NCBI RefSeq assembly: GCF_014700075.1
Contig: NZ_JACXBU010000001.1
Span: 558,001-622,000, forward strand
Length of the DNA: 64,000 nt
Direction of reading: 5' to 3'
Source: Pseudomonas sp. JM0905a
GTDB taxonomy: Bacteria > Pseudomonadota > Gammaproteobacteria > Pseudomonadales > Pseudomonadaceae
In this document: positions 3,267 to 33,920 of the stretch, in pieces
Layout: every line of letters begins with the position of its first letter
How positions within the stretch are numbered: the first letter of the stretch is position 1
The notes under the pieces: generated by a model
Told to the model about the DNA's origin: nothing
Seen by the model: only the letters and a program-made list of their open reading frames with translations
Databases searched by the model: none
Program-made: the position numbers and the translations under genes

Positions 3267-3292
3267 GGGCGCCCATGGGCGCCCTTTTTCTT
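3267..3292 (+). terminator. Rho-independent terminator after der
   Basis: GGGCGCCC at 3267-3274 pairs with the same palindromic octamer at 3277-3284 and is followed by TTTTTCTTT. It lies 18 bases after the der stop. Confidence 0.85.
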
Positions 3293-3316
3293 TCCGGGTG
3301 GAACTTGTCTTTACGC

Positions 3317-3377
3317 AGGAGCGAGCTCTGCTCGCGAATCGGACTGACACGCTGTTTCGCGAGCCGAGCTCGCTCCT
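3317..3377. repeat. REP-like inverted repeat between der and the aminotransferase
   Basis: A 22-base arm (AGGAGCGAGCTC...) and its near-complement (...CCGAGCTCGCTCCT) are separated by about 17 bases. This is the typical form of the pseudomonad REP/repeated extragenic palindromes. It lies between a terminator and the next gene, so it is probably a mobile palindrome rather than a regulator. Confidence 0.7.
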
Positions 3378-3456
3378 AGAGGGCCATTCCTGTGGTGGCG
3401 AAATCCCCCAGGGCTTAAGCTATGACCCACTTCCCAGTCGCCAGCAGCCTGAAGAA

Positions 3457-4605
3457 ATGATCGCCAGCAAGTTGCCCAACGTCGGCACCACCATCTTCAC
3501 CCGCATGTCCCAGCTCGCCGCTGAAGTCGGCGCCATCAACCTGTCCCAGGGCTTCCCGGATTTCTCCGCGCCAGCCGCCCTGTGCGACGCGGTCGGCCGG
3601 CACATCGCCGCCGGACATAACCAATACGCCCCGATGACCGGCCTGCCCGCGCTGCGTGAACAGGTGGCGGCCAAGGTGGCCGCTTTCTACGGCCGTGCGG
3701 TCAGCGCCGATGCCGAGGTGACCATCACTCCCGGTGCCACCGAAGCTATTTTCTGCGCCATCCAGGCGGTGGTCCGCGCCGGTGACGAGGTGATCGTCCT
3801 CGACCCCTGCTACGACAGTTACGAACCATCCGTGGAGCTGGCCGGCGGCCGCTGCGTCCACGTGCCGCTGGCACTGCCGGGCTTCTCCATCGACTGGCAG
3901 CGCATGCGCGACGCCCTCAGCCCGCGCACGCGCATGATCATTCTCAACAGCCCGCACAATCCCAGCGGCGCGCTGATCTCCCGCGCCGAACTGGACCAGT
4001 TGGCCGAGCTGATCCGTGGTCGCGATATTTATCTGGTCTCGGACGAAGTCTACGAGCACCTGGTGTTCGACGACGTCAGCCACGTCAGCGTGCTCGCCCA
4101 TGACGAGCTCTACGCGCGCGCCTTCGTGGTCAGCTCCTTCGGCAAGACCTATCACGTCACTGGCTGGAAGACCGGCTACGTGGTTGCCCCGCCGGCGCTT
4201 TCGGCCGAGCTGCGCAAGGTCCACCAGTATGTGAACTTCTGCGGCGTCACTCCGTTGCAGTGGGCGCTGGCCGACTTCATGGCGGCGCATCCGGAGCACC
4301 TGGCCGAGCTGCCGGCCTTCTACCAGGCCAAGCGTGACTTGTTCTGCGACTTGCTGGCCGGCTCGCGCTTCGGCTTCACCCGTGCCGCCGGTACTTACTT
4401 CCAACTGGTGGACTACAGCGCCATCCGCGACGACCTGGATGACGTGGCCATGTCCGAGTGGCTGACCCGCGAGCACGGCGTCGCCGCCATCCCGGTTTCG
4501 GTGTTCTACCAGCAGGCGCCCAAGGACCTGCGCCTGGTGCGCTTCTGCTTCGCCAAACGTGAGGAGACGCTGCGTCAGGCGGCGGAAAAGCTATGCGCGA
4601 TCTGA
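3457..4605 (+). CDS. Pyridoxal-phosphate aminotransferase, methionine/glutamine type (YbdL-like)
   Basis: 382 residues from the ATG at 3457; upstream in-frame codons run through the REP element and are not coding. It is a fold-type I aminotransferase: GATEAIF binding loop, NSPHNPSGA substrate/PLP motif, SDEVYEHL (the PLP Asp-x-x-Tyr) and the PLP-lysine motif SSFGKTYHVTGWK. The best family fit is YbdL/KAT-like methionine or glutamine transaminases. Its stop overlaps the start of an omega-amidase gene by 13 bases. Such a pair fits the glutamine transaminase/omega-amidase route, which pulls transamination of keto acids (such as the methionine-salvage keto acid) forward. The substrate is inferred. 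Confidence 0.88.
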   Translation: MIASKLPNVGTTIFTRMSQLAAEVGAINLSQGFPDFSAPAALCDAVGRHIAAGHNQYAPMTGLPALREQVAAKVAAFYGRAVSADAEVTITPGATEAIFCAIQAVVRAGDEVIVLDPCYDSYEPSVELAGGRCVHVPLALPGFSIDWQRMRDALSPRTRMIILNSPHNPSGALISRAELDQLAELIRGRDIYLVSDEVYEHLVFDDVSHVSVLAHDELYARAFVVSSFGKTYHVTGWKTGYVVAPPALSAELRKVHQYVNFCGVTPLQWALADFMAAHPEHLAELPAFYQAKRDLFCDLLAGSRFGFTRAAGTYFQLVDYSAIRDDLDDVAMSEWLTREHGVAAIPVSVFYQQAPKDLRLVRFCFAKREETLRQAAEKLCAI

Positions 4606-5387
4606 CCACCTTGCCGGACCTCAAGCTTGCCCTGGTGCAGACCACCCTGGCCTGGCACGACTGCGCCGCCAACCACGCGCACTTCGAAGCGCTGCTGGAG
4701 CAGGCGAGGAGGGCGGACCTGATTGTCCTGCCGGAGATGTTCACCACCGGCTTCTCCATGGATTCATCGGCCCTTGCCGAACCTGAACAAGGCCCGACCC
4801 ATGCCTGGCTGCGCGAGCAAGCCAGGCGCCTCGATGCGGTGATCACCGGCAGCCTCATCATCCAGGCCGCCGACGGCAGCCATCGCAACCGCCTGCTCTG
4901 GGCGCGCCCGGATGGTGAAGTCTTGCATTACGACAAGCGACACCTGTTCCGCATGGCAGGCGAGCACAAGCACTACACGCCGGGCGAAACCCAGGCGCTG
5001 TTCGAGCTCAAAGGCTGGCGGGTGCGTCCGCTGATCTGCTACGACCTGCGTTTCCCGGTGTGGAGCCGTGATCCGCACGACACCGACCTGCTGCTCTACA
5101 CCGCCAACTGGCCTGCGGCCCGTCGCCACCACTGGAACCGCCTGCTGCCGGCGCGCGCGATCGAGAACCTCTGCTTTGTCGCGGCAGTGAACCGTGTAGG
5201 GACCGATGGCAAGGGGCATGGCTACAGCGGCGACAGCCAGGTGCTGGACTTCCAGGGCGACAGCCTGCTGGATGCCGGCGATGGCGACGGCGTGTTCTTC
5301 GCCAGCCTGTCGGCTTCGCAGCTGGCTGCTTACCGCGAGCGCTTCCCGGCGATGCGTGATGCGGACGCTTTCGATCTGCATCTCTGA
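4593..5387 (+). CDS. Omega-amidase / nitrilase-superfamily amidohydrolase (YafV-like)
   Basis: 264 residues, carbon-nitrogen hydrolase fold. The catalytic triad is visible: Glu in VLPEMFTTGF, Lys in YDKRHLFRMAGE and Cys in RPLICYDLRFPVWSR. These are the signatures of YafV/NIT2 omega-amidases, which hydrolyse alpha-ketoglutaramate or ketosuccinamate to the dicarboxylic keto acid and ammonia. The start overlaps the upstream aminotransferase, implying translational coupling and a shared substrate stream. The product is cytoplasmic because no signal peptide is present. Confidence 0.9.
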   Translation: MRDLTTLPDLKLALVQTTLAWHDCAANHAHFEALLEQARRADLIVLPEMFTTGFSMDSSALAEPEQGPTHAWLREQARRLDAVITGSLIIQAADGSHRNRLLWARPDGEVLHYDKRHLFRMAGEHKHYTPGETQALFELKGWRVRPLICYDLRFPVWSRDPHDTDLLLYTANWPAARRHHWNRLLPARAIENLCFVAAVNRVGTDGKGHGYSGDSQVLDFQGDSLLDAGDGDGVFFASLSASQLAAYRERFPAMRDADAFDLHL

Positions 5388-7774: not shown

Positions 7775-7973
7775 AGGGGCTAACCCTATTCATCGTGAGT
7801 GAATATGGCAAGCATCGTGGAAAAAATGGTGAAAAAGAGCGCAAGAATCTGCAAAGCGGAAAATTATTGCGTGAACGGAGCGGGTTTCTAGGAATGATTG
7901 CGCGGCTTCTTTGGCGCGAGGCAGCCAGCCCGCGAAAGGCCCATTGCCGGGCAATCCGCGGGCAGTGCTCGGA

Positions 7974-9197
7974 TCATTGCGCGGGAGGCAGGCGCAGTGT
8001 GCGCATGTCCGCACCGCTTGGGTGCTGGAAGACCCGCAGGCCGAACTCCGGAAGTATTGCCAGCAGGTGGTCGAAGATGTCGGACTGGATGGCCTCGTAG
8101 CGGGCCCAGGCGGTGGTGTTGGTGAAGCAGTACAGCTCCAGGGGCAGTCCATCGGCGGTGGGGGCCATCTGCCGCACGAGCAGGGTCATGTCCTTGCGGA
8201 TGTCCTGGCTCTCCCGCAGGTAGTTCTCCACATAGGCGCGGAAGGTGCCGAGGTTGGTCAGTTGGCGGCTGTTGACCGGCAGGCGCTCGTCTTCGTCCAG
8301 CTGGCTGTTCCAGGACAGCAGCTCGCTCTGCTTGACGGTGAGGTAGCTGTCCAGCAGGCGGAAATCGTGCAGTCGCTCAATGTCGTCCTGATTGAGGAAG
8401 CGCACGCTGTTCTGGTCCAGGTACAGGCAACGCTTGATCCGCCGGCCCCCCGATTCCTGCATGCCGCGCCAGTTCTTGAACGAATCGGTGATGAAGCGCT
8501 TGGTGGGAATGGTGGTGATGGTCTTGTCCCAGTTCTGCACTTTTACCGTGTGCAGGGCGATGTCGATGACGTCGCCATCGGCGTTGAGCTGCGGCATTTC
8601 CACCCAGTCGCCGACGCGGATGATGTCGCTGGAGGTGATTTGCACGCTGGCCACCAGGGACAGCAGGGTGTCCTGGAAGATCAACAGCAGCACGGCGGCC
8701 ATGGCGCCCAGGCCGGAGAGCAGGATCAACGGCGAGCGGTCGATCAGGCTGGCGATGATCAGAACGGTGGCGATGGCGAAGATGGCGATCTTCAGCACCT
8801 GGATATAGCCCTTGATGGGCCGCAGGTGGGCGTCCTTGCGGCGCAGATACAGGCCGTTGACGATGTTCAGTGCGGCGCTCAGGGCCAGGGCGATGGTGAG
8901 GATGATGAAGGCGGCACAGACGTTGGTGATGATCTCCACCAGCGCATTCGGCAGGTTTGGCACCACCCGCACGCCGCCGGTCAGCACCAGGGCGGGCACC
9001 ACGTTGGCCAGGCGCTTGATCAGTCCGTGGTCCTGGATATGCACGCCAGTGAGGCGGAACAGGCCACGGATCAGGATGCGCTGGACGATCCAGTTGGAAA
9101 TCCACGCGAGGAGGAGGAGGACGGCGGTGGTGACGATGGTGTGCAGCTCTTCATGCTGCCGCAGCCAGGCGAGCCAGGGGGTGACATCGTTCTGCAT
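7974..9197 (-). CDS. Mechanosensitive channel, MscS family (YbdG/MscM-like)
   Basis: 407 residues with about five hydrophobic helices in the first 180 (for example HTIVTTAVLLLLAWIS and IFAIATVLIIASLI). A pore-lining glycine/alanine helix (LLSGLGAMAAVLLLIFQDTLL) and the MscS beta domain (SSDIIRVGDWVEMP, VKVQNWDKTITTIPTKRF) follow. The long cytoplasmic tail and overall length match YbdG-type miniconductance channels rather than the 286-residue MscS. It acts in the inner membrane to release solutes on hypo-osmotic shock. It stands alone, 108 bases from the peptidase gene upstream. Confidence 0.9.
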   Translation of the reverse strand: MQNDVTPWLAWLRQHEELHTIVTTAVLLLLAWISNWIVQRILIRGLFRLTGVHIQDHGLIKRLANVVPALVLTGGVRVVPNLPNALVEIITNVCAAFIILTIALALSAALNIVNGLYLRRKDAHLRPIKGYIQVLKIAIFAIATVLIIASLIDRSPLILLSGLGAMAAVLLLIFQDTLLSLVASVQITSSDIIRVGDWVEMPQLNADGDVIDIALHTVKVQNWDKTITTIPTKRFITDSFKNWRGMQESGGRRIKRCLYLDQNSVRFLNQDDIERLHDFRLLDSYLTVKQSELLSWNSQLDEDERLPVNSRQLTNLGTFRAYVENYLRESQDIRKDMTLLVRQMAPTADGLPLELYCFTNTTAWARYEAIQSDIFDHLLAILPEFGLRVFQHPSGADMRTLRLPPAQ

Positions 9198-9305: not shown

Positions 9306-10127
9306 TCAGGGTTTGTAGGCGCCAATGAAGATGGCCGGGTCCACGCGCACATCGTTGAGGCTGACGTTCCAGTGCATGTGCGGGCCGGTGGCACGTCCGG
9401 TGGCGCCGACGCGGCCCACCACGCCGCCGCGTGGCAGCTGTTGGCCGAGCTTCACCTCTACCTTCGACATATGACAGAACATGCTGATCAGGCCCTGGCC
9501 GTGGTCGACGAACACTGTCCTGCCGTTGAAGAAGTAATCGCCGATGAGGATCACCTTGCCCGCCGCCGGGGCCTTGATCGGCGTGCCGGCGCCCACGGCG
9601 AAGTCCAGGCCGGAATGCGGGTTGCGTTCTTCGCCATTGAAGAAGCGACGCAGGCCGAAGGGGCTGGAAAGCGGGCCGTTCACCGGCTTGTCGAACAGCA
9701 GGTTGCTCGGTGTTCCGGGGCTGAAGCGGCGGTAGGCGGTAGTCTGCTCGGCCAGTTCGCGGTCGATGCGCTTGAGGTCTTCCGGCAGCGGATTCACCTG
9801 GCGCTTGTTGGTCAGTTTGATGTGCTGCTCGCGATAGGTGCGTGGGCCGACGCTGAAGGCCAGCTTGCGTCCATCGCTCACGTCTATCTGCTGCTGACCC
9901 GCCTTGGTCCCCAGCGGAATGCCGACGATGGCGATCCAGTCGCGACCATCTTCTTTCACCACCAGCACCGGTTTGCCCTGGTAGCGTGCAGTGGGCGCCT
10001 GGGTGGCGCTGCCGAGCTGGATCACTGCCACGCCGCCCGGTACCGGCTTGTTCAGCAGGCGGGTGATGAAACCTTCGGCATGGACGGGCAGGGCGAGGCA
10101 GAGGAGCAGGGCGGCGAGCAGGCGCAT
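9306..10127 (-). CDS. M23-family murein endopeptidase, exported
   Basis: 273 residues with a signal peptide ending PVHA. The C-terminal LytM/M23 domain has the zinc ligands in NPHSGLDFAVGAGTPI (HxxxD) and HMHWNVSL (HxH), plus the conserved VFVDHGQGLISMFCHM segment. The catalytic set is complete, so it should be an active DD-endopeptidase or amidase-like peptidoglycan hydrolase in the periplasm rather than an EnvC-type activator. It starts two bases after the xseA stop and is very likely cotranscribed with it. Confidence 0.92.
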   Translation of the reverse strand: MRLLAALLLCLALPVHAEGFITRLLNKPVPGGVAVIQLGSATQAPTARYQGKPVLVVKEDGRDWIAIVGIPLGTKAGQQQIDVSDGRKLAFSVGPRTYREQHIKLTNKRQVNPLPEDLKRIDRELAEQTTAYRRFSPGTPSNLLFDKPVNGPLSSPFGLRRFFNGEERNPHSGLDFAVGAGTPIKAPAAGKVILIGDYFFNGRTVFVDHGQGLISMFCHMSKVEVKLGQQLPRGGVVGRVGATGRATGPHMHWNVSLNDVRVDPAIFIGAYKP

Positions 10128-10129
10128 GG

Positions 10130-11509
10130 TCAGTCCAGCAGGGAGAGGTTCACGGGGGTGAGGTGATTGTCTTCGACTCGCACGTCCAGCTCGCCCTCGG
10201 CGAGGCGGGCCTTCAGGCGCTGGCCGGGGCGTGTCTGGCTGGCGGCGCGGATGGCCTGGCCGCGTTCGTCCAGCAGGATGCTGTAGCCGCGGCCGAGGGT
10301 GGCCAGGGGGCTGACCACGTGCAGGGTCTGGGCCAGGGCGTCGAGCTTCTGTCGACGGTCCTTTATGGCGTCTCGGGCGGCGCGGGGCAGGCGCTCAGCC
10401 AGGCTGTCCAGCCGCTGACGCAACAGCGCCAGGGTGCGCCCTGGATGCTGCGCGGCGAGACGGGTATCGAGGCGCACCAGGCGTTCGTGGCGAATTTGCA
10501 GCTGGCGCTCGAAGGCCCGGCGCAGGCGCATGTCCAGGTCGTCCAGACGCTGGGCCTGCTGGCGCAGTCGTTCGCCGGGGTGGCGCAGGCGGCGGAACAG
10601 ACCGTCCAGGCGCAGGCGCTCGCGGGTCAGGTGTTCCCGCATGCGCAGGACCAGGCGTCGATGCAGGCTGTCCAGGCGCTGTTGCAGTTCACTGGCGTCC
10701 GGGGCCAGCAACTCGGCGGCGGCGGAGGGGGTTGGAGCGCGTACGTCAGCGACGAAATCGCTGATGGAGACGTCCGTCTCGTGGCCAACGGCGCTGACGA
10801 TGGGCGTCTTGCAGGCGGCCACCGCGCGGGCGACGGCTTCTTCGTTGAAGCACCAGAGGTCCTCCAGCGAGCCGCCGCCCCGGGCCAGGATCAATGCATC
10901 AAAGCCCTGCGCATCGGCCAGCGCCACGGCGCGGACGATCTGTGCGGTGGCTTCGCGGCCCTGCACCGCGGTGGGGATCAGGGTCAGCTGCACCTGGGGG
11001 GCACGGCGGCGGAATACGCTGATGATGTCGCGGATCACCGCGCCAGTGGGCGAGCTGACGATGCCGATGCGCTGCGGGTGGGCAGGCAGCGGGCGCTTGC
11101 GTTCGGTGGCGAACAGCCCCTCGGCGGCAAGCTTTTCCTTCAGTGCTTCGAACGCCAGGCGCAGGGCGCCGTCGCCGGCGGGTTCAACGGTGTCGGCGAT
11201 CAGCTGGTAGTCGCCACGGCCTTCGAACAGCGAGACCTTGCCGCGCACCCGCACGGCGAGGCCATCACGCAGGGCCTGACGCACGCGCTGGGCATTCTGT
11301 CGGAACAGCGCACAGCGGACCTGAGCCTGGGCATCCTTGAGGGTGAAATAGAGGTGGCCGGAAGCGGGGCGGGCGAGGTTGGAAATCTCGCCTTCCACCC
11401 AGACCTGCGGGAACACGTCCTCCAGTAGATGGCGGGCGCGCTGGTTGAGCTGGCTGACGGTCAGCACCTCGCGGTCGAGGCCGAGCCGTTGGAAGGGGTC
11501 TTTGAGCAT
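10130..11509 (-). CDS. xseA: Exodeoxyribonuclease VII large subunit
   Basis: 459 residues from the ATG at 11509, the usual length; an in-frame ATG at 11539 would add ten residues. It has an N-terminal OB fold (FPQVWVEGEISNLARPASGHLYF), the catalytic core (RIGIVSSPTGAVIRDI, ILARGGGSLEDLWCFN, SAVGHETDVSISDFVAD) and a long Arg-rich coiled coil. It forms the single-strand exonuclease with XseB, which is not in this window. It heads a two-gene unit with the M23 peptidase. Confidence 0.95.
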   Translation of the reverse strand: MLKDPFQRLGLDREVLTVSQLNQRARHLLEDVFPQVWVEGEISNLARPASGHLYFTLKDAQAQVRCALFRQNAQRVRQALRDGLAVRVRGKVSLFEGRGDYQLIADTVEPAGDGALRLAFEALKEKLAAEGLFATERKRPLPAHPQRIGIVSSPTGAVIRDIISVFRRRAPQVQLTLIPTAVQGREATAQIVRAVALADAQGFDALILARGGGSLEDLWCFNEEAVARAVAACKTPIVSAVGHETDVSISDFVADVRAPTPSAAAELLAPDASELQQRLDSLHRRLVLRMREHLTRERLRLDGLFRRLRHPGERLRQQAQRLDDLDMRLRRAFERQLQIRHERLVRLDTRLAAQHPGRTLALLRQRLDSLAERLPRAARDAIKDRRQKLDALAQTLHVVSPLATLGRGYSILLDERGQAIRAASQTRPGQRLKARLAEGELDVRVEDNHLTPVNLSLLD

Positions 11510-26121: not shown

Positions 26122-26142
26122 ATGTACAAGCTGTGTTTCTAT
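26122..26142 (+). repeat. Left attachment site (attL core)
   Basis: ATGTACAAGC...TTTCTAT, identical over 21 bases to 33603-33623. Downstream of it the reading frame of the host gene is replaced, giving a 14-codon remnant (MYKLCFY, then NYFNKSL and stop at 26166). It retains the native ribosome-binding site CGGAGAACCC just upstream. Confidence 0.92.
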
Positions 26143-26198
26143 AATTATTTCAATAAATCCTTATAAATCAACAGCTTAAGATTATTTCTCGGCTGCAA

Positions 26199-26219
26199 TT
26201 CTACCCGTTTTTTCTACCC
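26199..26219 (+). promoter_or_regulatory. Integrase arm-type sites, left end (two copies)
   Basis: TTCTACCC at 26199-26206 and 26212-26219, 13 bases apart. The same octamer with the same 13-base spacing occurs three times at the right end. These are the expected footprints of the amino-terminal domain of the tyrosine integrase. Confidence 0.75.
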
Positions 26220-26423
26220 ATACCCTGCATTTCCGAGTTAGTAAAGCGGACCGCCGCAGATACTGCCGCTGGCAAGTCGATCAAAAATCAACCAGTAACA
26301 GGCAGATTAACAGCATGAAATACATCTTTTCATAATTATAAAAACGCAAGACCCTAACTCGGACGCCAGTATCTACGTGGTATTCGGCCCCAAAATACTA
26401 AGCCCTGCCCTTTACCTACCCCT

Positions 26424-26501
26424 GTTTTCATAATTTAGAATAAACTTTTGTTTTCATAATTAAGAATAAAAATACGTTTTCTAAATTAAGAAATAATTGT
26501 T
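26424..26501 (+). repeat. Three 26-bp AT-rich tandem repeats
   Basis: Starts at 26424, 26450 and 26476, each opening GTTTTC and continuing ATAATTTAGAATAA or a close variant (CATAATTAAGAATAA; TAAATTAAGAAATAA). A partial copy, CTTTTCATAATTATAAAAA, begins near 26326. The array lies upstream of the RHH-like gene and could be its operator, an excisionase site or an AT-rich origin unwinding element. The rest of 26143-26659 holds the arm sites and one weak 39-codon frame (26537-26656, starting MIRNLSTQD); no other gene is visible. Confidence 0.75.
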
Positions 26502-26659
26502 TCACCAAACAGTTCCAAAGAACAAAAACTGTTGATATGATCCGCAACCTGTCCACCCAGGACAGTATCTCCCGATACTTCATTGGCACGCATTTCGCCG
26601 CAACGCAATTTGCCTCGCATGGCTTTGTCGCGACAACATCCAATAAGGAAAAATAATGA

Positions 26660-26809
26660 ATGCTTGATCTTAGATTAAAGCCTGCGACATTCGCACGCCT
26701 GAAAGAAATAAGTGTCGCCAACGGAGTTTCCGTTGCCGCACTCATAGCCCGCCTGCTTGACGAACTGACGCAAGGAAAGCAGCCCAATGATAAACCCGAA
26801 ACCATTTAA
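26660..26809 (+). CDS. Small ribbon-helix-helix-like protein
   Basis: 49 residues, starting MLDLRLKPATFARLKEISVA. A short beta strand (LDLRLKP) is followed by two helices (ATFARLKEISVANG and VSVAALIARLLDEL), the order of Arc/CopG/MetJ-fold DNA-binding proteins. AAGGAA lies ten bases before the ATG. It sits between the 26-bp repeats and the helicase gene, 32 bases before the latter, so it is probably the element's repressor or copy-control protein acting on the upstream repeats. Function is inferred from fold and place only. Confidence 0.6.
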   Translation: MLDLRLKPATFARLKEISVANGVSVAALIARLLDELTQGKQPNDKPETI

Positions 26810-26841
26810 CAAATCACACCATCTCACACGAAGGAGAGTCC

Positions 26842-28095
26842 ATGACCAACGTTGTAAACATAAAGAAAGATGCAGCCCTTGAAGCTGTCAGAGCGCGATT
26901 CGTTCGCGTTCCCTCGAATAACTCCTATCCTCGATTTCGTGACTTAGTGACGGGGCAGGATCAGGGCGACGCCTACGTCTTAGAGGCTTTCTACAAACAG
27001 CAAGGCGGCACGAACTATGATGGGGCTGGCCTGCTGAAAGTCATCCCACTGACGTATGGAGAAGGCTTCAAGCCCAGGGCTGGAAAGATTCTGCCGGGCG
27101 ACTTGGTGAATCTATGGGAGGCCCCGGAGATACGCCCAAGCGGCAAGATCGTGGCTAGGGAAGAGGTGGGGCCGTTCATGGAGTTCCTACAGCGTTGGTT
27201 CCCCGATGAAGACGAACGGATTTACTTCGGGACTTGGTTAACTTGGACAATCCGCTATCCCGATCAACGGATTGTTGCTACGCCAGTTCTCCGCAGTGAA
27301 CACGGCGTTGGCAAGGGATTCTTTGTCGAAACCCTGATGGCCGAGCTACTCGGAAAGAAGGCCGTCGCAGCCTGTCACATCAAAGACGTGGTTGGTGACT
27401 TTAACGATGTAATCGAGGGCAAGACCCTTATCCTGATTGACGAAATGTACAAGTCAGGGAAGTCCACGGTGGATGCTCTCAAAAGCTTCCAGGGAAACGC
27501 GACGATGCCGCTACGCCGTAAACATAAGCCAGTGGTTCCGATTGACAATTATGTTAACTTCATCATTACCAGCAACGATCACAGCCCGATTGAATTGGAG
27601 AAGGGGGACAGACGCTTCTGGGTTCCTAAGTTCATCAGGCATAAGGTTGACAAGGATGAAACATCCAGATTTCTCAATGACGTTTTCAAACCCTGGCTCT
27701 TGAAAGGGGGGTTCCAACTGGTACGCGATTATCTGGAAACGGTGGACTTGTCGAAGTTTCGTCCTAACGATGCGGCCCCTGGGACTGCAAGCAAGCTAGA
27801 CATGCTCGGTTTCAGTCCAGCCGACAAGCTGGAGGAACTTCTAGAAGTCCATTTGGAAGGTGTGCAGGTTGTTACGTTGGCCACCGTAAAGGCTTGGTTC
27901 AAAGGTGAGTTCGAACAGATGCCATCCGATATGGCCATTGGTTCTGCCCTGAGTGCGGCAGGTTGTGAATCGAAGCGGTCGAAGACTACGCGCTACTACA
28001 TCACTCCACATGGCAAAGCTTCGGGGTTGAGCCAGTCCAGTAAGCCGCAGGAGTTGGACGCAATTCTGGAGGCTGGGCTACCTGAAACTATCTAG
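26842..28095 (+). CDS. SF3-like replicative helicase (phage/plasmid primase-helicase family)
   Basis: 417 residues; AAGGAGAG lies immediately before the ATG. Its P-loop ATPase core has Walker A EHGVGKGFF (Lys158) and Walker B LILIDEM (Asp200, Glu201). A polar sensor-like segment (NFIITSNDHSPIELEKGDRR) follows. This order is that of SF3-type helicases of mobile-element replication proteins (D5-like/DUF5906 group). No N-terminal primase motif is evident, and a small C-terminal domain (about residues 320-417) may bind DNA. Two arrays of short direct repeats follow the stop and are the likely origin. It probably replicates the excised circular form. Confidence 0.82.
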   Translation: MTNVVNIKKDAALEAVRARFVRVPSNNSYPRFRDLVTGQDQGDAYVLEAFYKQQGGTNYDGAGLLKVIPLTYGEGFKPRAGKILPGDLVNLWEAPEIRPSGKIVAREEVGPFMEFLQRWFPDEDERIYFGTWLTWTIRYPDQRIVATPVLRSEHGVGKGFFVETLMAELLGKKAVAACHIKDVVGDFNDVIEGKTLILIDEMYKSGKSTVDALKSFQGNATMPLRRKHKPVVPIDNYVNFIITSNDHSPIELEKGDRRFWVPKFIRHKVDKDETSRFLNDVFKPWLLKGGFQLVRDYLETVDLSKFRPNDAAPGTASKLDMLGFSPADKLEELLEVHLEGVQVVTLATVKAWFKGEFEQMPSDMAIGSALSAAGCESKRSKTTRYYITPHGKASGLSQSSKPQELDAILEAGLPETI

Positions 28096-28097
28096 AA

Positions 28098-28210
28098 GGT
28101 GACAGCCAGGGTGACAGGGTGACAGGTGGGTGACAGGTATTTCAAAAAGCCGTCACCCGCTGGAGGCCCTGTCATTACTAGCACTCCGGCAAAAGGTGAC
28201 AGGGTGACAG
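28098..28210 (+). repeat. GGTGACAG iteron-like array
   Basis: Six direct copies of GGTGACAG start at 28098, 28110, 28118, 28129, 28195 and 28203, with partial inverted copies (GTCACCC, CTGTCAT) between the fourth and fifth. The array begins three bases after the helicase stop codon. Dense short direct repeats beside a replication protein gene are typical origin iterons. Confidence 0.75.
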
Positions 28211-28232
28211 CTTTGTGTCGCCTATTTTAGAA

Positions 28233-28302
28233 AGTGAACAGTAAGGCACGCGAAGAGTGAACGAAGTGAACGCCGTGCCGCACAAGTGAACGCCAGTGAA
28301 CG
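28233..28302 (+). repeat. AGTGAACG iteron-like array
   Basis: Five copies of AGTGAAC(G/A) start at 28233, 28256, 28265, 28285 and 28295. The unit differs from, but resembles, the preceding GGTGACAG unit. Two related repeat types side by side suggest two binding modes for the initiator. I recall GTGAAC-type iterons at the phage P4 origin, but that comparison needs checking. Confidence 0.7.
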
Positions 28303-28320
28303 CACACGCGATTCCTTTCA

Positions 28321-28343
28321 GCCCTTGCAGGGCGTTTCTTTTC
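28321..28343 (+). terminator. Short terminator after the iteron arrays
   Basis: GCCCT - TGC - AGGGC followed by GTTTCTTTTC. It would stop rightward transcription from the helicase gene before the opposing membrane-protein gene. Confidence 0.6.
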
Positions 28344-28351
28344 ATTCATGG

Positions 28352-29059
28352 TCAAAGGCTGTTAAGGATTCTTTGCTGCTCTTCAAGGAACGCCTTGGCC
28401 CCTGCATATCGCTGACTGATCTTGTTCATGTCCCACTCTCCCACGTCGTCTATTTCATCGCCTCGGGATTCTGGCCAGTCTAGGAACGAGTACACAACAT
28501 AGATGGAGTTCGGTTCCATGCCGATATCGTGGTTCATAGGTTCGAAGAAGGATGGGACGTAGGTATGTCCGTAGGCGTCAGGGTTGAGGAATATTCTGAA
28601 TCTGTTTCGCCAGTCTTCCGCTGTCCCTTCGTACAGTAGCTTCACGCCCTTGTTCCTAATCATCTGGGCGCTCTTTTCAGCGTTCAGTAGCCAGCGGGCA
28701 CTTGTAAGCCACATCGCCCGTCCTCGGACAGGTCCGTCCACGCCTTCCCGTTGTAGTGCGTTGAATGCCCTTTCGAGACAGGAGATAGCGTGGTTAAGGT
28801 ATACCTCATCCTCTCGCATTTCCTTGTCCTTCCGCATGTGGTTGTCCTGAACCCATACGGTGTACAAGAGTCCGGCAAAACTGAAGGCGGCCAACACCGT
28901 GGCCAGCACGCCCCCGATGTAATCCCCGAACTGGCCCCAGTGGGCAGGGTCATTGCTCATTGCGTGGTTGCGGAAGTTTCCGAGCCAGGGCGCCACTGTA
29001 ATTGCGATTGCCAAGGCAAGTCCTACAACGGCCCATATCCAGAGCTTCTTGTTGCCCAT
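28352..29059 (-). CDS. Two-helix membrane protein, PutAbiC-like (putative phage abortive-infection family)
   Basis: 235 residues. TM1 (IWAVVGLALAIAITVAPWL) and TM2 (GGVLATVLAAFSFAGLLYTV) flank a short loop with the W-G-x-F-G-D-Y-I-G-G-V-L motif that I associate with the PutAbiC family. A charged helix (DNHMRKDKEMREDEVYLNHA) and a cytosolic domain of about 150 residues rich in aromatics follow. The family is named from predicted abortive-infection proteins, with little direct evidence for individual members. It lies on the opposite strand from its neighbours inside the element, as accessory cargo often does. Confidence 0.65.
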   Translation of the reverse strand: MGNKKLWIWAVVGLALAIAITVAPWLGNFRNHAMSNDPAHWGQFGDYIGGVLATVLAAFSFAGLLYTVWVQDNHMRKDKEMREDEVYLNHAISCLERAFNALQREGVDGPVRGRAMWLTSARWLLNAEKSAQMIRNKGVKLLYEGTAEDWRNRFRIFLNPDAYGHTYVPSFFEPMNHDIGMEPNSIYVVYSFLDWPESRGDEIDDVGEWDMNKISQRYAGAKAFLEEQQRILNSL

Positions 29060-29352
29060 TCCATCAGTTCCTTAACAGTGGCGGTAACAGGGGTTTAATC
29101 CCGTGAGAATGGTCAGCATGTTAACCACGCCCCTTCATGAAGCCCAGCAACTCCAGGGCATAGGCCAGTCGGTTGCCCAACTAACCCGCGTTTCTGCACC
29201 TGATCTTTCAAAACGGTTGTGAAAGTTGAAAGCGCGCGTAGTCCCCAACAAACGAGAAGTTGATTAACTGGCCGTAGTTGATAGCGGGTGTCTATGGCTG
29301 GCAGACGGGCATCCGGAATCGGGCCAGTCCTGGCAGGAAGGGGGATTAGGCG

Positions 29353-29470
29353 TGTGTCATTACGGGTACACCTGACACAGCACGGGGATACGGGTCGGAA
29401 TCCGTGTCATTAAATGGGCTTTTCAGATTCAAACTGACACAGTAGAATGTGATACACCCAAACTGACACA
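29353..29470 (+). promoter_or_regulatory. res site of the serine recombinase (three inverted-repeat subsites)
   Basis: Three imperfect dyads with TGTGTCA/TGACACA ends lie at 29353-29379 (27 bp), 29403-29441 (39 bp) and 29448-29470 (23 bp), separated by 23 and 6 bases, directly before the recombinase ATG at 29484. Tn3/gamma-delta res has subsites of about 28, 34 and 25 bp with 22- and 5-bp spacers in this same order relative to the resolvase gene. The match predicts crossover in the first subsite and autoregulation. The rest of 29060-29352 shows only a CTTTCA...TGAAAG hairpin near 29210-29231 and no gene. Confidence 0.75.
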
Positions 29471-29483
29471 ATGGACTTCAGCC

Positions 29484-30104
29484 ATGTTCATCCGGGCCTA
29501 CCTGCGAGCCTCCACCAGTGAGCAAGACGCCAGCCGTGCTAAACAGGCGTTGATTGACTTTGTGGCCAGCCACGGCCAACGAATCGCCTCTTTCTACGTG
29601 GAGAACGAATCCGGGGCGAAGCTCCAACGCCCGGAGCTGTTTCGCCTGCTGGACGATTGCCAACCGGGTGACGTACTCCTAACCGAACAGGTTGACCGAC
29701 TGTCCCGCCTGAACGCTGAGGATTGGGAAAGCCTGAAAGCCATCATCGCGGCTAAGAAAGTAACCATCGTCACCCTGGACCTCACCACAAGCCACGCGGT
29801 GTTTAAACCGGAAAAGGATCAGGACGCTTTCACTAAAGGCATGATCGCGGCAGTTAACGGGATGCTGCTGGACATGCTCGCTGTAGTCGCTCGCAAGGAC
29901 TACGAAGATCGCCGCCGCCGTCAGGCTGAAGGGATTGCAAACGGTAAGGCTCAGGGTGTTTACAAGGGCCGTCCGGCTGACGCAGAGCTGCACGCCAAGA
30001 TCGCGGAACTGCTGAACGATCACAAGTCCATCCGCCGCATTGCGGAGTTGCTGGATTGCTCCACAACCACAGTTCAGAAGGTTAAACGGACCGTGTCCGC
30101 ATAA
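29484..30104 (+). CDS. Small serine recombinase (resolvase/invertase family)
   Basis: 206 residues. The N-terminal catalytic domain has Ser10 in YLRASTSEQDASRAKQ and the arginine cluster in VLLTEQVDRLSRL. A long E helix (around MIAAVNGMLLDMLAVVARKDY) and a C-terminal helix-turn-helix (IRRIAELLDCSTTTVQKVKR) follow. Size and order match Tn3-type resolvases and Pin-type invertases. The res-like site upstream favours a resolvase that reduces multimers of the circular element. It is not needed for integration because a tyrosine integrase is present. Confidence 0.92.
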   Translation: MFIRAYLRASTSEQDASRAKQALIDFVASHGQRIASFYVENESGAKLQRPELFRLLDDCQPGDVLLTEQVDRLSRLNAEDWESLKAIIAAKKVTIVTLDLTTSHAVFKPEKDQDAFTKGMIAAVNGMLLDMLAVVARKDYEDRRRRQAEGIANGKAQGVYKGRPADAELHAKIAELLNDHKSIRRIAELLDCSTTTVQKVKRTVSA

Positions 30105-30125
30105 GCCCCGTCATACGCCCCACAC

Positions 30126-30154
30126 AAGCCCGTCAACGCGGGCTTTGTTGTTTA
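30126..30154 (+). terminator. Terminator after the serine recombinase
   Basis: AAGCCCG - TCAACG - CGGGCTT followed by TGTTGTTT, 22 bases past the stop. Confidence 0.75.
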
Positions 30155-30234
30155 TGCGTGTCTGCCAGCGTGGTTAATGTTCCGCGTGCTGTTGGGCCTT
30201 CCAGGGCTGCTCCAGGGCCGTCGATATTATGAAT

Positions 30235-30417
30235 TTACTTAACCTTGGATGACCCCCATGTCCGCAGGGTTAAGTAGCACTCACACAGGACCCGTCCCGA
30301 TAGTTCGCTGATGCTCAGATACTTTCCGCCAGCCCAAACAAAGCGACCCCCACCCCATGTGTTCCCGGTCCGAAAAAGGGGCAGGGGTTGGCCAATCCAG
30401 AAATGCTCCCCGCTCAT
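30235..30417 (-). CDS. Possible small protein, weakly DUF2924-like
   Basis: A 60-codon frame starting MSGEHFWIGQ. The middle (GRFVWAGGKYLSISELSGRV) faintly resembles the G-F-x-W-x-G-x-x-Y-x-S-L-S core of DUF2924 proteins, which occur beside serine recombinases. The upstream AAGGTG is too close to the ATG to be a good ribosome-binding site. It could equally be noncoding. Confidence 0.25.
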   Translation of the reverse strand: MSGEHFWIGQPLPLFRTGNTWGGGRFVWAGGKYLSISELSGRVLCECYLTLRTWGSSKVK

Positions 30418-30481
30418 CACCTTCAGATGCGGATGTTTACCCGTGAACTAACCTCAAAATTGCCCTCACTAGATTGAGGAC

Positions 30482-30546
30482 AGTGGCCACTGCGAGGCAC
30501 CTTCTCTATCCAATGGCGTTTCGTTGCTGTGTCCGTGGTGGCCACT
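30482..30546 (+). ncRNA. Structured RNA candidate A (long hairpin)
   Basis: AGTGGCCAC at 30482-30490 pairs with GTGGCCACT at 30538-30546 around a 47-base loop. The 3' arm contains CCGTGGTGGCC, the same 11 bases as the 3' arm of candidate E at 31097-31107. The left arm is itself a 10-bp palindrome. No U-tract follows, so this member is the least convincing. A weaker fifth structure (CCGCC/GGCGG, 30567-30610) lies between it and candidate C. Confidence 0.35.
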
Positions 30547-30694
30547 TCAAGTTAAGGTCGTAACTTCCGCCTTCGTCTCACCCCACAGCGAATGCTCACA
30601 GCGGTGGCGGCCTCTTTTCGTCCTGCCGCTTGTCATTGGCCCGTGTGCAGGACCACATCGGGTGTATCCTAAAGTTGTCCCACTAAGAGGACTG

Positions 30695-30753
30695 AAAGCC
30701 ACCGCAAGCCCTCACCCCATCGGGCAACGGAACGCGGTGGCTTTCTTGTTTCC
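30695..30753 (+). ncRNA. Structured RNA candidate C (11-bp stem, C-rich loop, U-rich tail)
   Basis: AAAGCCACCGC (30695-30705) pairs perfectly with GCGGTGGCTTT (30734-30744). Inside is a second stem, GCCC/GGGC, presenting the loop TCACCCCATC. The tail reads CTTGTTTCC. CTAAGAGG lies 12 bases before the stem, as a related CTAAGATGG does before candidate E. It could be a small RNA, a terminator with an unusually large loop, or an untranslated regulatory leader. Confidence 0.5.
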
Positions 30754-30799
30754 GGGGTACGTCAGGGGGTGGCCGTTTGGGGGGCTGAAAAAGGGAGGC

Positions 30800-30908
30800 A
30801 TTGCGGGGGGTGCGGAGGAGGTCTCGTGCCGCAATACCTCACTCTCCTTCCGCGAGAAGCACTAAAGGCTTCTGTCTCCCTTCCGAGGAAGAGGTTGCGG
30901 CCTTTTTG
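30800..30908 (+). ncRNA. Structured RNA candidate D (two mutually exclusive stems, terminator-like end)
   Basis: GCCGCAA-TA-CCTC (30828-30840) pairs with GAGG-TTGCGGC (30891-30901) and is followed by CTTTTTGG, a terminator form. The inner hairpin AGAAGC/GCTTCT spans 30855-30873. The left arm can instead pair with ATTGCGG at 30800-30806 (partner CCGCAAT at 30829-30835). Such exclusive pairings are the hallmark of attenuators or antisense-controlled leaders. No gene begins immediately downstream. Confidence 0.5.
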
Positions 30909-31045
30909 GCACCCGAACTCCGACGGGCATCTTTCACCCTACGCTGATTAAGGCGGCTTCGCAGACTTATTCAATACCCTCCAGCGCGTGTCCGTTTGTC
31001 ACCTTCGAGGCCATGTGAATAGCACTTCGCTAAGATGGGGTGTTT

Positions 31046-31110
31046 GGCCACCACGGACTCACCTCCTCCAGCGGAGGCGCACCCCACGTCCCGCAACCGT
31101 GGTGGCCCTT
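31046..31110 (+). ncRNA. Structured RNA candidate E (11-bp stem, anti-Shine-Dalgarno-like sequence)
   Basis: GGCCACCACGG (31046-31056) pairs perfectly with CCGTGGTGGCC (31097-31107). Inside is a 5-bp stem, CCTCC-AGC-GGAGG (31065-31077). The segment ACTCACCTCCTCC closely resembles the 3' end of 16S rRNA (the anti-Shine-Dalgarno). CTAAGATGG precedes it. The stretch 30155-31117 outside these structures and the weak 60-codon frame shows no supportable gene. Confidence 0.5.
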
Positions 31111-31117
31111 ATTACCG

Positions 31118-31309
31118 CTATGGGAGCGTCATCGCGAGATACAACGCGAAGCATCCCGCAGCTGCAACACTGCCCAGCAACAGGCCATTCGCCCAATTCA
31201 ATCCGCGCTCCTGGTGTTCACCGGCAACCTTGGTGAAAACTAAAATTAGTCCGGCTTGCAGTAGCCAGATGAACACGCACAAACCCGTTAGAACAACTTC
31301 CCTGTCCAT
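31118..31309 (-). CDS. Possible small two-helix membrane protein
   Basis: 63 codons from an internal ATG at 31309 preceded by GGACAGG (68 codons if the ATG at 31324 is used). Two hydrophobic segments (VVLTGLCVFIWLLQAGLIL and GLLLGSVAAAGCFALYLAMTL) are joined by a charged loop (FTKVAGEHQERGLNW). This is a clean membrane-hairpin pattern, and the region has no competing frame on the other strand. It resembles no family I know; holin-like or toxin-like small proteins share the topology. Confidence 0.45.
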   Translation of the reverse strand: MDREVVLTGLCVFIWLLQAGLILVFTKVAGEHQERGLNWANGLLLGSVAAAGCFALYLAMTLP

Positions 31310-31490
31310 GTCCTGTCCGTTCATTCACTGCAATACGTTCTAGTGTATAGCCATGACATTTGGTGTGGGGCCCACACGACGCCCGCCACGGCCTCTCCCT
31401 TCTACATCGCTCCAGGCATGGGAGCAGCTAGTTTGCGAAAGGGCGCTGCTGATACGCTGCCTACACTTCCACACCTTCAGGGACGACGTA

Positions 31491-31928
31491 ATGGCAGAGA
31501 ACAGTAGAAGCGAAAGCCTCCACGCGGTGTACACGGACGCCATTTCCAAGTTCGATCACTTCCTGATGGGCGCCACCCTTGCCGTGTGTGGTTATCTCGC
31601 CCAGTCCAACCCATACGCCAAGCTCGGTTTGAATCTCCCGACGCTGTATCTGATTAGCTTGGTGTTCTTCGCCCTGGCTGCGTTCTGCTGCTACAAGCGG
31701 TTGGAACACACCATCGTACTGCTGAGTGACAACGTGGGCATGTTGGAGGCACATGAAGCGGAGAGGCATGACCGGGCTAAACAATACCGGGCCCGGCTGA
31801 AAGCAGTGTCCCGCCGCACGAATCTTTACTACAAGGCCCGTTTCTGGATGTTGGTTGGTGGCTTCGTCACGTACACCGCCGCGAAGGTGTTGGGCCCCTA
31901 CGTCACACCCTGTCAGCCCCCCATCTAG
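31491..31928 (+). CDS. Hypothetical three-helix membrane protein
   Basis: 145 residues from the ATG at 31491, which has AGGGA eight bases upstream; the open frame extends back to 31353 without a good site. Helices are at LMGATLAVCGYLAQ, LYLISLVFFALAAFCCY and FWMLVGGFVTYTAAKVLG, with a charged cytosolic helix (EAHEAERHDRAKQYRARLKAVSRR) between the second and third. I do not recognise the family. It converges on the integrase gene and their stop codons share the four bases CTAG. Position beside the integrase is typical for accessory cargo of integrative elements. Confidence 0.6.
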   Translation: MAENSRSESLHAVYTDAISKFDHFLMGATLAVCGYLAQSNPYAKLGLNLPTLYLISLVFFALAAFCCYKRLEHTIVLLSDNVGMLEAHEAERHDRAKQYRARLKAVSRRTNLYYKARFWMLVGGFVTYTAAKVLGPYVTPCQPPI

Positions 31929-33493
31929 TCGGATTCCTGTGTGTTCTTGCGATTGGGCATGTCTTGAAAATTGAATTGCAATTTCTCAATGGCTTCCCGC
32001 TTCTGTTCAAGACTCGGCCCTTTCCCGTACACGTCGAACGTGATGTGCCCGACAAGGTGGCCAATCGTGGCGGGGATGACGATGGGTGATACTCCCGCTC
32101 GGAGCAGCATCGTTGCGGCGGTGCCCCGGAAGGAGTGGAACACATGCCGGTCCCCGAACTGTTCTGCACGCTTCAGCTTGCTAAACCGCTGCCCCAATGC
32201 ACTCAGGCGTAGCTCATGTTTGGTGTCGGAATTGCCGGGGAACAGGAATCCCTCATCCCCCTGCGGAGAGGCTAGGCGCTTCTGATACAGCGGCAGTAGG
32301 GCCGAGTGAATCGGGACTTCCCGGATACCGGCGGGAGTCTTGGCTTTATCCACCTTGAACGCGATGGGTAAACCAGATTCATCGAGGATCGTTGTCTCTC
32401 GACGGATTCGGCCCAGCTCTTCAATCCGGCAGCCGGTGTAAGCCCCGAAGGCGATCAGGTCAGCAAGGTCAGTGTCACCCTTGGCCAGTGCGGCGGCGTG
32501 TAACTGTTCGACTTCCTTCTGCGTGTAGTCCGCCCAGTTGCCCCCTGCGTTTTCACCCACGCGGGGATGGGTGTGGTTGTCGAATGGATTCTTCGCGTCT
32601 GCGTAGATGCCCCGGTAGTACGTGTCATACCGGCAGGCCCATTCGTGGAATCGTTGCCACGCGGCGATGTAGCCCGTGCGTGTCTGGCGATTCTGGGAGG
32701 TCTGGTCCAGGAACTCAGCCACGGCATCGAAGTTCAGCTCCCGTCCGTTCGTGGTCAGCCACTTGGAAAGCTTCTGAACCTTGGACACGTACACATCACG
32801 AGTGCGGACGTTATCGTTCTGCGTAAGGTAGAACTCGGAAAATCGCTCGATGCTGGTGGCAGAGATAGGCGACTTCGGCCTGTAGCTGGCGGGGTCGCTG
32901 GCAAGGGATAGGGCTTCGGACAGCTCCGATCCGTTGAGCGTGTGTCTGGCCTTTGCACTGTGAGCCAATACCTTCTGTTGCAGCTCGGAGGCGCGTTTGA
33001 CCTTCTCTACGAGCGGAAGGCTTTCATCATCGTAAATCGCCCTCCATTCGCTTTGGAGGCCCGACAATCCTAGTTCCTGCCCCAGCTGTTCAAGGTCGGT
33101 GTTTAGCTCCGCTTCCATGTTTGCGAGGTTAGCGGCGTTTGCCTCCAATTCCTCCAGCGTTCGGGCCGGTGATCGGGTTGCTTTGAGCGTTCCCTTGATG
33201 GTCGCCAGTAGTACCCCGTCTGCCTTCTCGTGGTGTGCTTTGGCGGTAGTGTGAAGCTCTTCACGCCAGCGATCACCCGCGCGGATTTTGGCGTCTCGGA
33301 TGGCACGAAATTCCGCCTTCCACTGTCCAACCTGCGTGCTGGCTAGTTCTTGGGCAAGGCGCTTGTCACCTGTCCGAAGACTCTTGCTCAGGATGCTACG
33401 GTTTCCAAAAGCAGGGCGTAGTTCAGCAGGGATATCAATGCGAACGTGCCAAGTTGATCCACGTAACAGAAGGTGATTCGTCTGTGATGGCAT
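31925..33493 (-). CDS. Tyrosine recombinase / integrase
   Basis: 522 residues from the ATG at 33493; an in-frame ATG at 33526 would place the start inside the arm-site repeats. It has an N-terminal arm-binding region, a core-binding SAM-like domain (about 200-310), and a catalytic domain. The first Arg is in GAYTGCRIEELGRIR (about 355), the H-x-x-R is in FHSFRGTAATMLLRAGV (about 450), and the Tyr nucleophile is in GHITFDVYGKG (about 489). It lies next to the right attachment site and should integrate and excise the element at the NIF3-like gene. Its length and domain order suit phage and satellite integrases. Confidence 0.93.
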   Translation of the reverse strand: MPSQTNHLLLRGSTWHVRIDIPAELRPAFGNRSILSKSLRTGDKRLAQELASTQVGQWKAEFRAIRDAKIRAGDRWREELHTTAKAHHEKADGVLLATIKGTLKATRSPARTLEELEANAANLANMEAELNTDLEQLGQELGLSGLQSEWRAIYDDESLPLVEKVKRASELQQKVLAHSAKARHTLNGSELSEALSLASDPASYRPKSPISATSIERFSEFYLTQNDNVRTRDVYVSKVQKLSKWLTTNGRELNFDAVAEFLDQTSQNRQTRTGYIAAWQRFHEWACRYDTYYRGIYADAKNPFDNHTHPRVGENAGGNWADYTQKEVEQLHAAALAKGDTDLADLIAFGAYTGCRIEELGRIRRETTILDESGLPIAFKVDKAKTPAGIREVPIHSALLPLYQKRLASPQGDEGFLFPGNSDTKHELRLSALGQRFSKLKRAEQFGDRHVFHSFRGTAATMLLRAGVSPIVIPATIGHLVGHITFDVYGKGPSLEQKREAIEKLQFNFQDMPNRKNTQESD

Positions 33494-33513
33494 AATGATG
33501 TCTGTCGACTGGT

Positions 33514-33547
33514 TTCTACCCAGCAATTCTACCCAGAATTTCTACCC
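33514..33547 (+). promoter_or_regulatory. Integrase arm-type sites, right end (three copies)
   Basis: TTCTACCC at 33514, 33527 and 33540, exactly 13 bases apart and in the same orientation as the two copies at the left end. They overlap the likely integrase promoter region, so integrase may repress itself. Confidence 0.78.
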
Positions 33548-33590
33548 AATTATAGGTTGGTTCCCTTGCAGGCCGCGTGTTTGCTGGGTC

Positions 33591-33623
33591 GGAGGGTTAA
33601 ACATGTACAAGCTGTGTTTCTAT
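33591..33623 (+). repeat. Right attachment site (attR core) with element-derived ribosome-binding site
   Basis: The 21-bp core is 33603-33623. GGAGGG at 33591-33596, contributed by the element, stands six bases before the host ATG and replaces the native GGAG now left at 26112-26115. The host gene is therefore reconstituted and equipped with a new translation signal. Confidence 0.88.
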
Positions 33624-33920
33624 GTTCCGGAGAGCCATCTGGAACCTGTGAAAAAAGCCATTTTCGCGGCTGGCGGGGGGCGCATTGGCGCCTATGACAG
33701 CTGCTGCTGGCAGGCACTCGGACAGGGTCAGTTCCGTCCGCTCGAGGGCAGCAGTCCCTACCTGGGCCAGACCGGCACCGTCGAGCATGTAGCCGAATGG
33801 AAAGTGGAAATGGTCGTCGCCGACGAACTGATCCACGAGGCGGTCAAGGCCCTGAAGAAGGCCCATCCTTATGAGACGCCGGCCTTCGAGGTCTGGCGCC
33901 TCTCCGACCTGGTGTTCTGA
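33603..33920 (+). CDS. NIF3/YqfO-like small protein (target gene of the element)
   Basis: 105 residues, starting MYKLCFYVPESHLEPVKKAI. Features include GGGRIGAYDSCCWQALGQGQFRPLEG, the acidic SPYLGQTGTVEHV and a C-terminal ALKKAHPYETPAFEVWRL. It corresponds to the free-standing YqfO/CutA-like domain inserted in NIF3 proteins; its biochemical role is unknown. The element integrated exactly at its first seven codons and restored the full frame, leaving purL and the CDGSH gene as the original left-hand neighbours. It converges with the AraC-type gene, their stops being adjacent. Confidence 0.88.
   Translation: MYKLCFYVPESHLEPVKKAIFAAGGGRIGAYDSCCWQALGQGQFRPLEGSSPYLGQTGTVEHVAEWKVEMVVADELIHEAVKALKKAHPYETPAFEVWRLSDLVF

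Follow-up and report, generated by a model that had tools for sequence, protein, structure and literature searches.

A 64-kb stretch of the genome of Pseudomonas sp. JM0905a (hereafter, the window; positions 558001-622000 of contig C11 in a 5.79-Mb genome of 43 contigs) contains an integrated 7.48-kb element that, judging from its genes, belongs to an apparently undescribed family of small elements of Pseudomonadaceae, which we consider, with moderate confidence, to be most likely phage satellites. This reading is favoured because a phage tail tape-measure gene is present in 10 of the 21 mapped elements of the family and head genes were not recognised; going by this gene content, the family probably spreads in phage particles. 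The window copy lacks both the tape measure and P156, a protein of unknown function common in the family, and because of this we only infer its own satellite status and dependence on a helper phage. A preliminary description of the element, made from the window alone, had proposed either a parasite of a helper phage or an integrative plasmid; the relatives tip the choice towards the satellite, although the window copy has no tape measure of its own.

The sequence shows precise integration. The element is bracketed by a perfect direct repeat (21 of 21 bp identical) forming the attachment cores attL (26122-26142) and attR (33603-33623), 7481 bp from core to core; here and below, positions are those of the window and features lie on the forward strand unless stated otherwise. 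A repeat search of the 64 kb with up to 3 mismatches found no third copy (shuffle mean 0.00, n = 100). The G+C content is 0.44-0.59 inside the element and about 0.65 outside. The insertion falls on the beginning of a CutA1-like gene (33603-33920, 105 aa; CutA1, 1.7e-4, 21.8 bits against a cut-off of 22.4) next to purL; the start of this gene is retained at attR and displaced at attL. This gene is present in all 18 genomes of the genus searched, our own included, and its start is occupied in three of them (our own, G010 and G016), where an element end with arm sites is found; in the other 15 the site is empty, purL lying 454-759 bp upstream with arm sites lacking nearby. The left junction in the window runs on from the empty-site sequence up to the core, and at the right junction the gene resumes. 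An integrase-bearing element also occupies the purL/CutA-like site in G151 and G194, two genomes from a different genus, a single core being found in G194; the G194 element (L070) runs from 17770 into transposase-like open reading frames (ORFs), and no second end could be located for it. The element supplies the target gene with a new upstream region, the original one being swapped for an element-end stretch that is conserved among five elements at this site and may thereby restore expression of the gene.

The tyrosine integrase (31925-33526, reverse strand) has an open frame, matches Phage_integrase (4.4e-11) and carries a DUF6538 N-terminal domain (3.7e-15). The integrases at the same site are 67, 64, 50 and 48% identical to it, and the nonsynonymous divergence (dN) is well below the synonymous one (dS) in comparisons with G016 (dN 0.26, dS 1.13) and G010 (dN 0.29, dS 1.71), indicating that the gene is under purifying selection. 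A motif search located the arm sites just inside the cores, TTCTACCCG (26199) and TTCTACCCA (26212) on the left (26199-26220) and three copies of TTCTACCCA (33514, 33527 and 33540) on the right (33514-33548). All four copies of TTCTACCCA in the window lie just inside an element end, against 0.07 expected; with some bases changed, right arm sites occur in threes in 5 of 5 aligned right ends and left arm sites in twos in 4 of 4 aligned left ends. The direct repeat, the inboard arm sites and the tyrosine integrase of the preliminary description are thus all borne out; its view of an excisable integrative element is strongly supported by the empty and occupied sites, and the related elements that it suggested looking for at the same gene are there in G010, G016, G151 and G194. 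Neither the integrase nor the helicase described below shows the inactivating changes that would have argued against it, both having open frames and the conserved residues, and the element is probably functional, as far as its sequence tells.

To delineate the family, local profiles were used to map 29 Pseudomonadaceae loci and 4 plasmids. Among 398 genomes of the bacterial family, the integrase matched 29 at 1e-60 (wider regions were examined for some of these), the tape-measure alignment 15 at 1e-15 (the tape measure of G010, which is more divergent, escaped it), and the helicase 7 at 1e-18, our own included; among 341 genomes of the order, the helicase alignment matched 11 at 1e-15, only two of them, both Pseudomonadaceae, strongly. 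Ends were picked by eye as direct repeats and accepted for 21 of the 29 loci (L015, L017, L019, L070, L092, L096, L101 and L103 had no acceptable repeat; the exact end repeat is as short as 14 bp in L108 and in L039). The 21 mapped elements span 6583-12476 bp between cores (median 10717) and all encode an integrase (read as two ORFs in L102) and a second recombinase, which is a serine recombinase in 18 and a small tyrosine recombinase in 3; P156 is encoded by 18, a protein denoted PRIM490 by 10, a tape measure by 10 and a DUF5906 helicase by 6. These elements are not independent: at identity levels of 70% and 50%, their integrases form 17 and 9 clusters and their serine recombinases 9 and 5, respectively. 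None of the loci was found by way of the second recombinase, the queries being the helicase, the target gene, the integrase and the tape measure. The presence of the second recombinase in 21 of 21 mapped elements makes the putative resolvase a hallmark of the family rather than a curiosity, contrary to the preliminary description, which had taken a resolution system to be uncommon in so small an element. Across all loci the count is 28 of 29, the exception being L017, whose helicase is interrupted. Other integration sites are tRNA-Ser (L016, L071, L072, L093, L102 and L104-L107), tRNA-Gly (L018) and signal recognition particle (SRP) RNA (L097, L098 and L100). P156 is missing from the window copy, L039 and L105; in L075 (11625-12110) it combines an alpha/beta head with a helix of about 75 residues, and its likeness to a capsid-scaffold chain of the PLE satellites of Vibrio is weak and non-significant. 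PRIM490, scanned in two members, gave no Pfam match and, from its gene position, may be a replication-type protein. We found no published description of such elements in the phage-satellite literature searched, which left out most subscription journals, and the family is apparently unnamed.

Tail genes are what links the family to phages. All 16 loci with a tape measure also encode P156 and the second recombinase; 14 of these 16 tape measures match Pfam TMP_3 at 1e-3 (best 1.7e-15) and 10 match PHROG 2335, the one in L014 having a Pfam score of 39.5 bits, just below the cut-off of 41. A Dit-like tail gene adjoins the tape measure in L094 (1.2e-15) and in L097, whose 265-aa protein shares the PHROG of its L094 counterpart. 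Two Dit-like matches were obtained among 67 ORFs from the window and ten tape-measure elements (65 of the 72 unassigned ORFs of at least 75 aa, plus two assigned ones; unassigned ORFs of the other ten mapped elements were scanned in part). In the same 67 ORFs, capsid, portal and terminase genes, the first and last of which characterize cf-PICIs, were absent both from Pfam's 12 families and from the 25 of 39 PHROG families listed. For the 748-aa tape measure of L038, the closest counterparts are those of Pseudomonas phages of 95-102 kb: 10 of the 11 phage records matched are from Pseudomonas, with identities of 24.6-29.1% across roughly one third of the protein. Two of the matched proteins are, by coordinates, 783 and 771 aa long, so that tail length would be nearly kept. 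The tape measure of L014 produced weak matches to four Caulobacter phage records only.

Several observations weigh against the satellite reading. Even a loose six-frame search of the window copy turned up neither P156 nor a tape measure, and the ORFs scanned gave no Dit match; the preliminary description had likewise seen no structural genes, and none was recognised in Pfam and PHROG scans of the element ORFs. When the mapped elements that were retrieved by way of the tape measure are set aside, 13 remain, of which just 2 (L014 and L038) carry one; L019 and L070, with unmapped ends and also fetched by other means, do so as well. Genes for AlpA, a terminase or capsid remodelling were not recognised either, AlpA having been sought in 10 ORFs of the window element. 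Scans of viral contigs with the helicase, tape-measure and integrase alignments, whose pattern step can miss some relatives, confirmed none, so packaging is not seen in public viromes. Finally, distant relatives of the helicase include plasmid-borne ones.

This last point also speaks for the alternative that the element is an integrative plasmid, which would excise, persist as a low-copy circle replicated from its iterons, use the resolvase against multimers and reintegrate; transformation, mobilisation or chance transduction would spread it, and a dedicated helper would play no part. Some of the distant helicase relatives lie on 6.5-9.3-kb plasmids of Klebsiella, Citrobacter and Vibrio; at the DNA level, 273 plasmid records match the element, and no phage record does. 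The five plasmid matches listed all coincide with the gene for the serine recombinase, four of them bearing the annotation recombinase family protein. The absence of a recognised virion gene from the window copy would also suit a plasmid. Elements at the very same site (L014, L038 and L070), however, carry tape-measure genes, and one of the plasmids, V. vulnificus pMP1 (L006, 7.6 kb), itself encodes a 596-aa tape-measure-like protein (3281-5071) together with a related helicase, and the plasmid form is therefore compatible with satellite life. Moreover, no mobilisation gene was recognised among the window ORFs scanned, and seven helicase-bearing plasmids are typed as non-mobilizable. On balance, we regard the integrative plasmid as unlikely. 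Two Klebsiella plasmids of 6.5-6.6 kb (L003 and L004) combine P156 and helicase homologues with a serine recombinase and no annotated integrase and are, on gene content, a plasmid-form cousin of the family.

The compactness of the window copy could also be secondary, that is, the element could descend from a tape-measure satellite that lost P156 and the tail module and survive as an integrated remnant with defence-like cargo. The same-site element L014, with a helicase of the same type plus P156, a protein denoted P76 and a tape measure, speaks for this, and about 0.7 kb of the window copy (30430-31100) holds no convincing gene. Yet the integrase, helicase and recombinase are all open and keep their conserved residues, the arm sites are complete, as are the two att cores, and L039 and L105 also lack P156, so the compact form recurs; decay of this kind seems to us improbable.

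Under the satellite reading, infection by a helper phage would trigger excision, the helicase would start replication at the iterons with a host or phage polymerase, and the copies would join as multimers or concatemers, which the resolvase would cut to monomers, be it ahead of packaging or once a new cell has been reached. Helper particles would carry the DNA; in members with a tape measure, the satellite protein would replace that of the helper in the tail, as it does for PLE, and the window copy, with neither tape measure nor P156, would use unmodified helper tails. A more specific version can be put forward tentatively, as a conjecture that may well fail: such satellites would need only four functions, namely an integrase, an origin with its helicase, a dedicated resolvase and, in many members, a tape measure of their own; full-size helper heads would be filled with their DNA in the form of head-to-tail concatemers, which would explain the resolvase of every mapped member as the enzyme that cuts unit circles on arrival, the tape measure would mark the tails made for satellite particles, and serine and tyrosine recombinases would have substituted for one another as resolvase.

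The replication module postulated in the preliminary description, an SF3-like helicase beside two short-repeat arrays, is readily discernible. The helicase (26842-28095, 417 aa, open frame) matches DUF5906 (4.4e-18) and a VapE-like family (5.1e-10), and the residues that we take, from motif definitions, to be Walker A, Walker B and the arginine are invariant across six aligned relatives. It is preceded by three A+T-rich 26-bp tandem repeats (26423-26500; copies 85% and 69% identical to the first) and a 49-aa ribbon-helix-helix-like protein (26660-26809, scanned from 26663; RHH_4, E = 0.0014, below the Pfam cut-off). Directly downstream lies a probable replication origin, an iteron array with six copies of GGTGACAG (28098-28210). 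As a bare count over 64 kb, six copies are not unusual (shuffle mean 2.76; 6 of 100 shuffles reach 6), but their clustering is: the commonest 8-mer occurs six times in 28096-28240, a value reached in 0 of 2000 first-order simulations. Repeats occupy the same position in relatives, with GGTGACA in the window, L072, L015 and L016, GGTAGAC and GGTGACA in L014, GGTAGAC in L071, CTCTGAC in L018, and 7-mers of different sequence in L019 and in the four plasmids, the chance test having covered the window array only. Repeats of differing sequence at one place argue for an origin that would be recognised by each cognate helicase, and they lend support to the proposed module. In L017 (8590-10962), the helicase gene is split by an insert that reads like a transposase, and the place of the downstream repeats is interrupted as well. 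The replication module of P4 also consists of an SF3 helicase with iterons beside the gene, a plan similar to that of the window; the match of our helicase to the P4-family primase C-terminus, TIGR01613 (3.5e-5, 22.8 bits), is nevertheless far below the curated cut-off of 108.7, and no AlpA, Sid or Psu was recognised.

The second recombinase of the window is a serine recombinase of 206 aa, a probable resolvase (29484-30104; Resolvase, 1e-21), in which the residues shared by 26 aligned relatives are intact, the presumed catalytic Ser and Arg among them. Upstream of it, a res-like array (29354-29469) contains five exact GTGTCA/TGACAC half-sites, out of 7 such hexamers in the element and 12 in the window; this number was reached in 33 of 2000 simulations, and in 0 of 300 when both orientations were required, and the array is not a product of chance. 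The recombinase and the res-like site noted in the preliminary description therefore stand, but the array is res-like rather than clearly Tn3-style: the three half-site pairs, one half-site being degenerate, span 25, 37 and 21 bp, which does not seem to match the canonical spacings of a three-site Tn3/gamma-delta res. The enzyme could instead be an invertase or a regulator of excision. It matches PHROG 125, named DNA invertase, and no significant half-site array was found at 10 of the 18 serine recombinases or at any of the 3 tyrosine ones. Against such a role, the five clustered half-sites have no counterpart, as the element contains no second cluster of at least three and thus no partner against which to invert is seen. 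The nearest solved chain, 2r0q (1.2e-11), is named Tn552 invertase bin3, with gamma-delta resolvase chains matching as well, if more weakly. Multimer resolution is also the simplest common task because a small tyrosine recombinase takes the place of the serine one in three elements. We accordingly hold an invertase or excision regulator to be decidedly unlikely and retain the resolvase as the probable role.

With regard to known satellites, PLEs carry a large serine integrase, whereas the family mostly combines a tyrosine integrase with a second recombinase. In other respects, the members with a tape measure resemble the PLE of Vibrio cholerae, which, according to a 2026 report (PMC12987554), is integrated, uses the helper capsid, encodes its own tape measure and a baseplate component and has a defence function. 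There, the tape measure encoded by PLE11 is assembled into chimeric tails, and transduction drops by about 99.9% when it is deleted; putative tape-measure genes are also reported from PLE-like elements and cf-PICIs (PMC12987554). The window copy differs in lacking a tape measure; for PLE the function has been shown, and for the Pseudomonadaceae family it is predicted from the genes. The window element can also be compared with PICMI, a minimal 6.1-kb Vibrio satellite with an integrase and a primase and no capsid-remodelling genes, which depends on a virulent helper and whose DNA is packaged as a concatemer; PICMI integrates by fis and needs alpA, in contrast to the CutA-like gene used here (elsewhere tRNA-Ser, tRNA-Gly or SRP RNA) and to the absence of any AlpA found, and the word resolvase does not occur in that text (PMC10803314). 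GN-PICI and HE-PICI share DUF5906 replication proteins with the family, and a resolvase in a satellite has precedent in one of their groups, inserted at tRNA-Phe; in the portion of that study available to us, the resolvase is peculiar to this group, in contrast to the second recombinase of every mapped member here, and Pseudomonas is not mentioned (PMC10111431). Islands at the tmRNA site of P. fluorescens have a tyrosine integrase, direct repeats and defence cargo and are moved by a jumbo phage, but their site is different, and the part of the source at hand makes no mention of a helicase, resolvase or tape measure (PMC12595487). Since the tape measure is often the sole virion gene recognised in a member, the family would make the chimeric-tail trick widespread and testable in Pseudomonas; the L038 protein indicates a specific class of helper, namely Pseudomonas myoviruses of ~95 kb, and the second recombinase offers a handle on the form in which small satellites travel in helper heads.

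Among minor features, a 17-bp inverted pair (30528-30544 and 31045-31061) without an Rfam match lies within the gene-poor segment of the window element. Elsewhere in the same genome, locus L122 (G000:C39:420000-439900) contains a second pair of integrase and serine recombinase, from the same protein families (7870-8457 and 9353-10894), in which local profiles detected no helicase, P156 or tape measure. The three membrane-protein genes of the preliminary description are recovered as ORFs with hydrophobic 19-mers, none with a Pfam family above cut-off: memA, a 235-aa two-helix protein and probable cargo (28352-29059, reverse strand; PHROG 8999, 5.1e-11, of unknown function); memC, 68 aa (31118-31324, reverse strand), with no family above cut-off; and memB (31491-31928, opening at 31353), with one such 19-mer only and no PHROG family. 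A PADLOC scan for defence systems found nothing. Other members carry anti-phage-like genes (AbiJ_NTD4, AbiGi and, in L071, Mrr_cat), which speak for the satellite reading and are the reason why memA-C may be defence-like cargo; a memA homologue, 38% identical, is located inside the tape-measure-bearing element L095 of G040.

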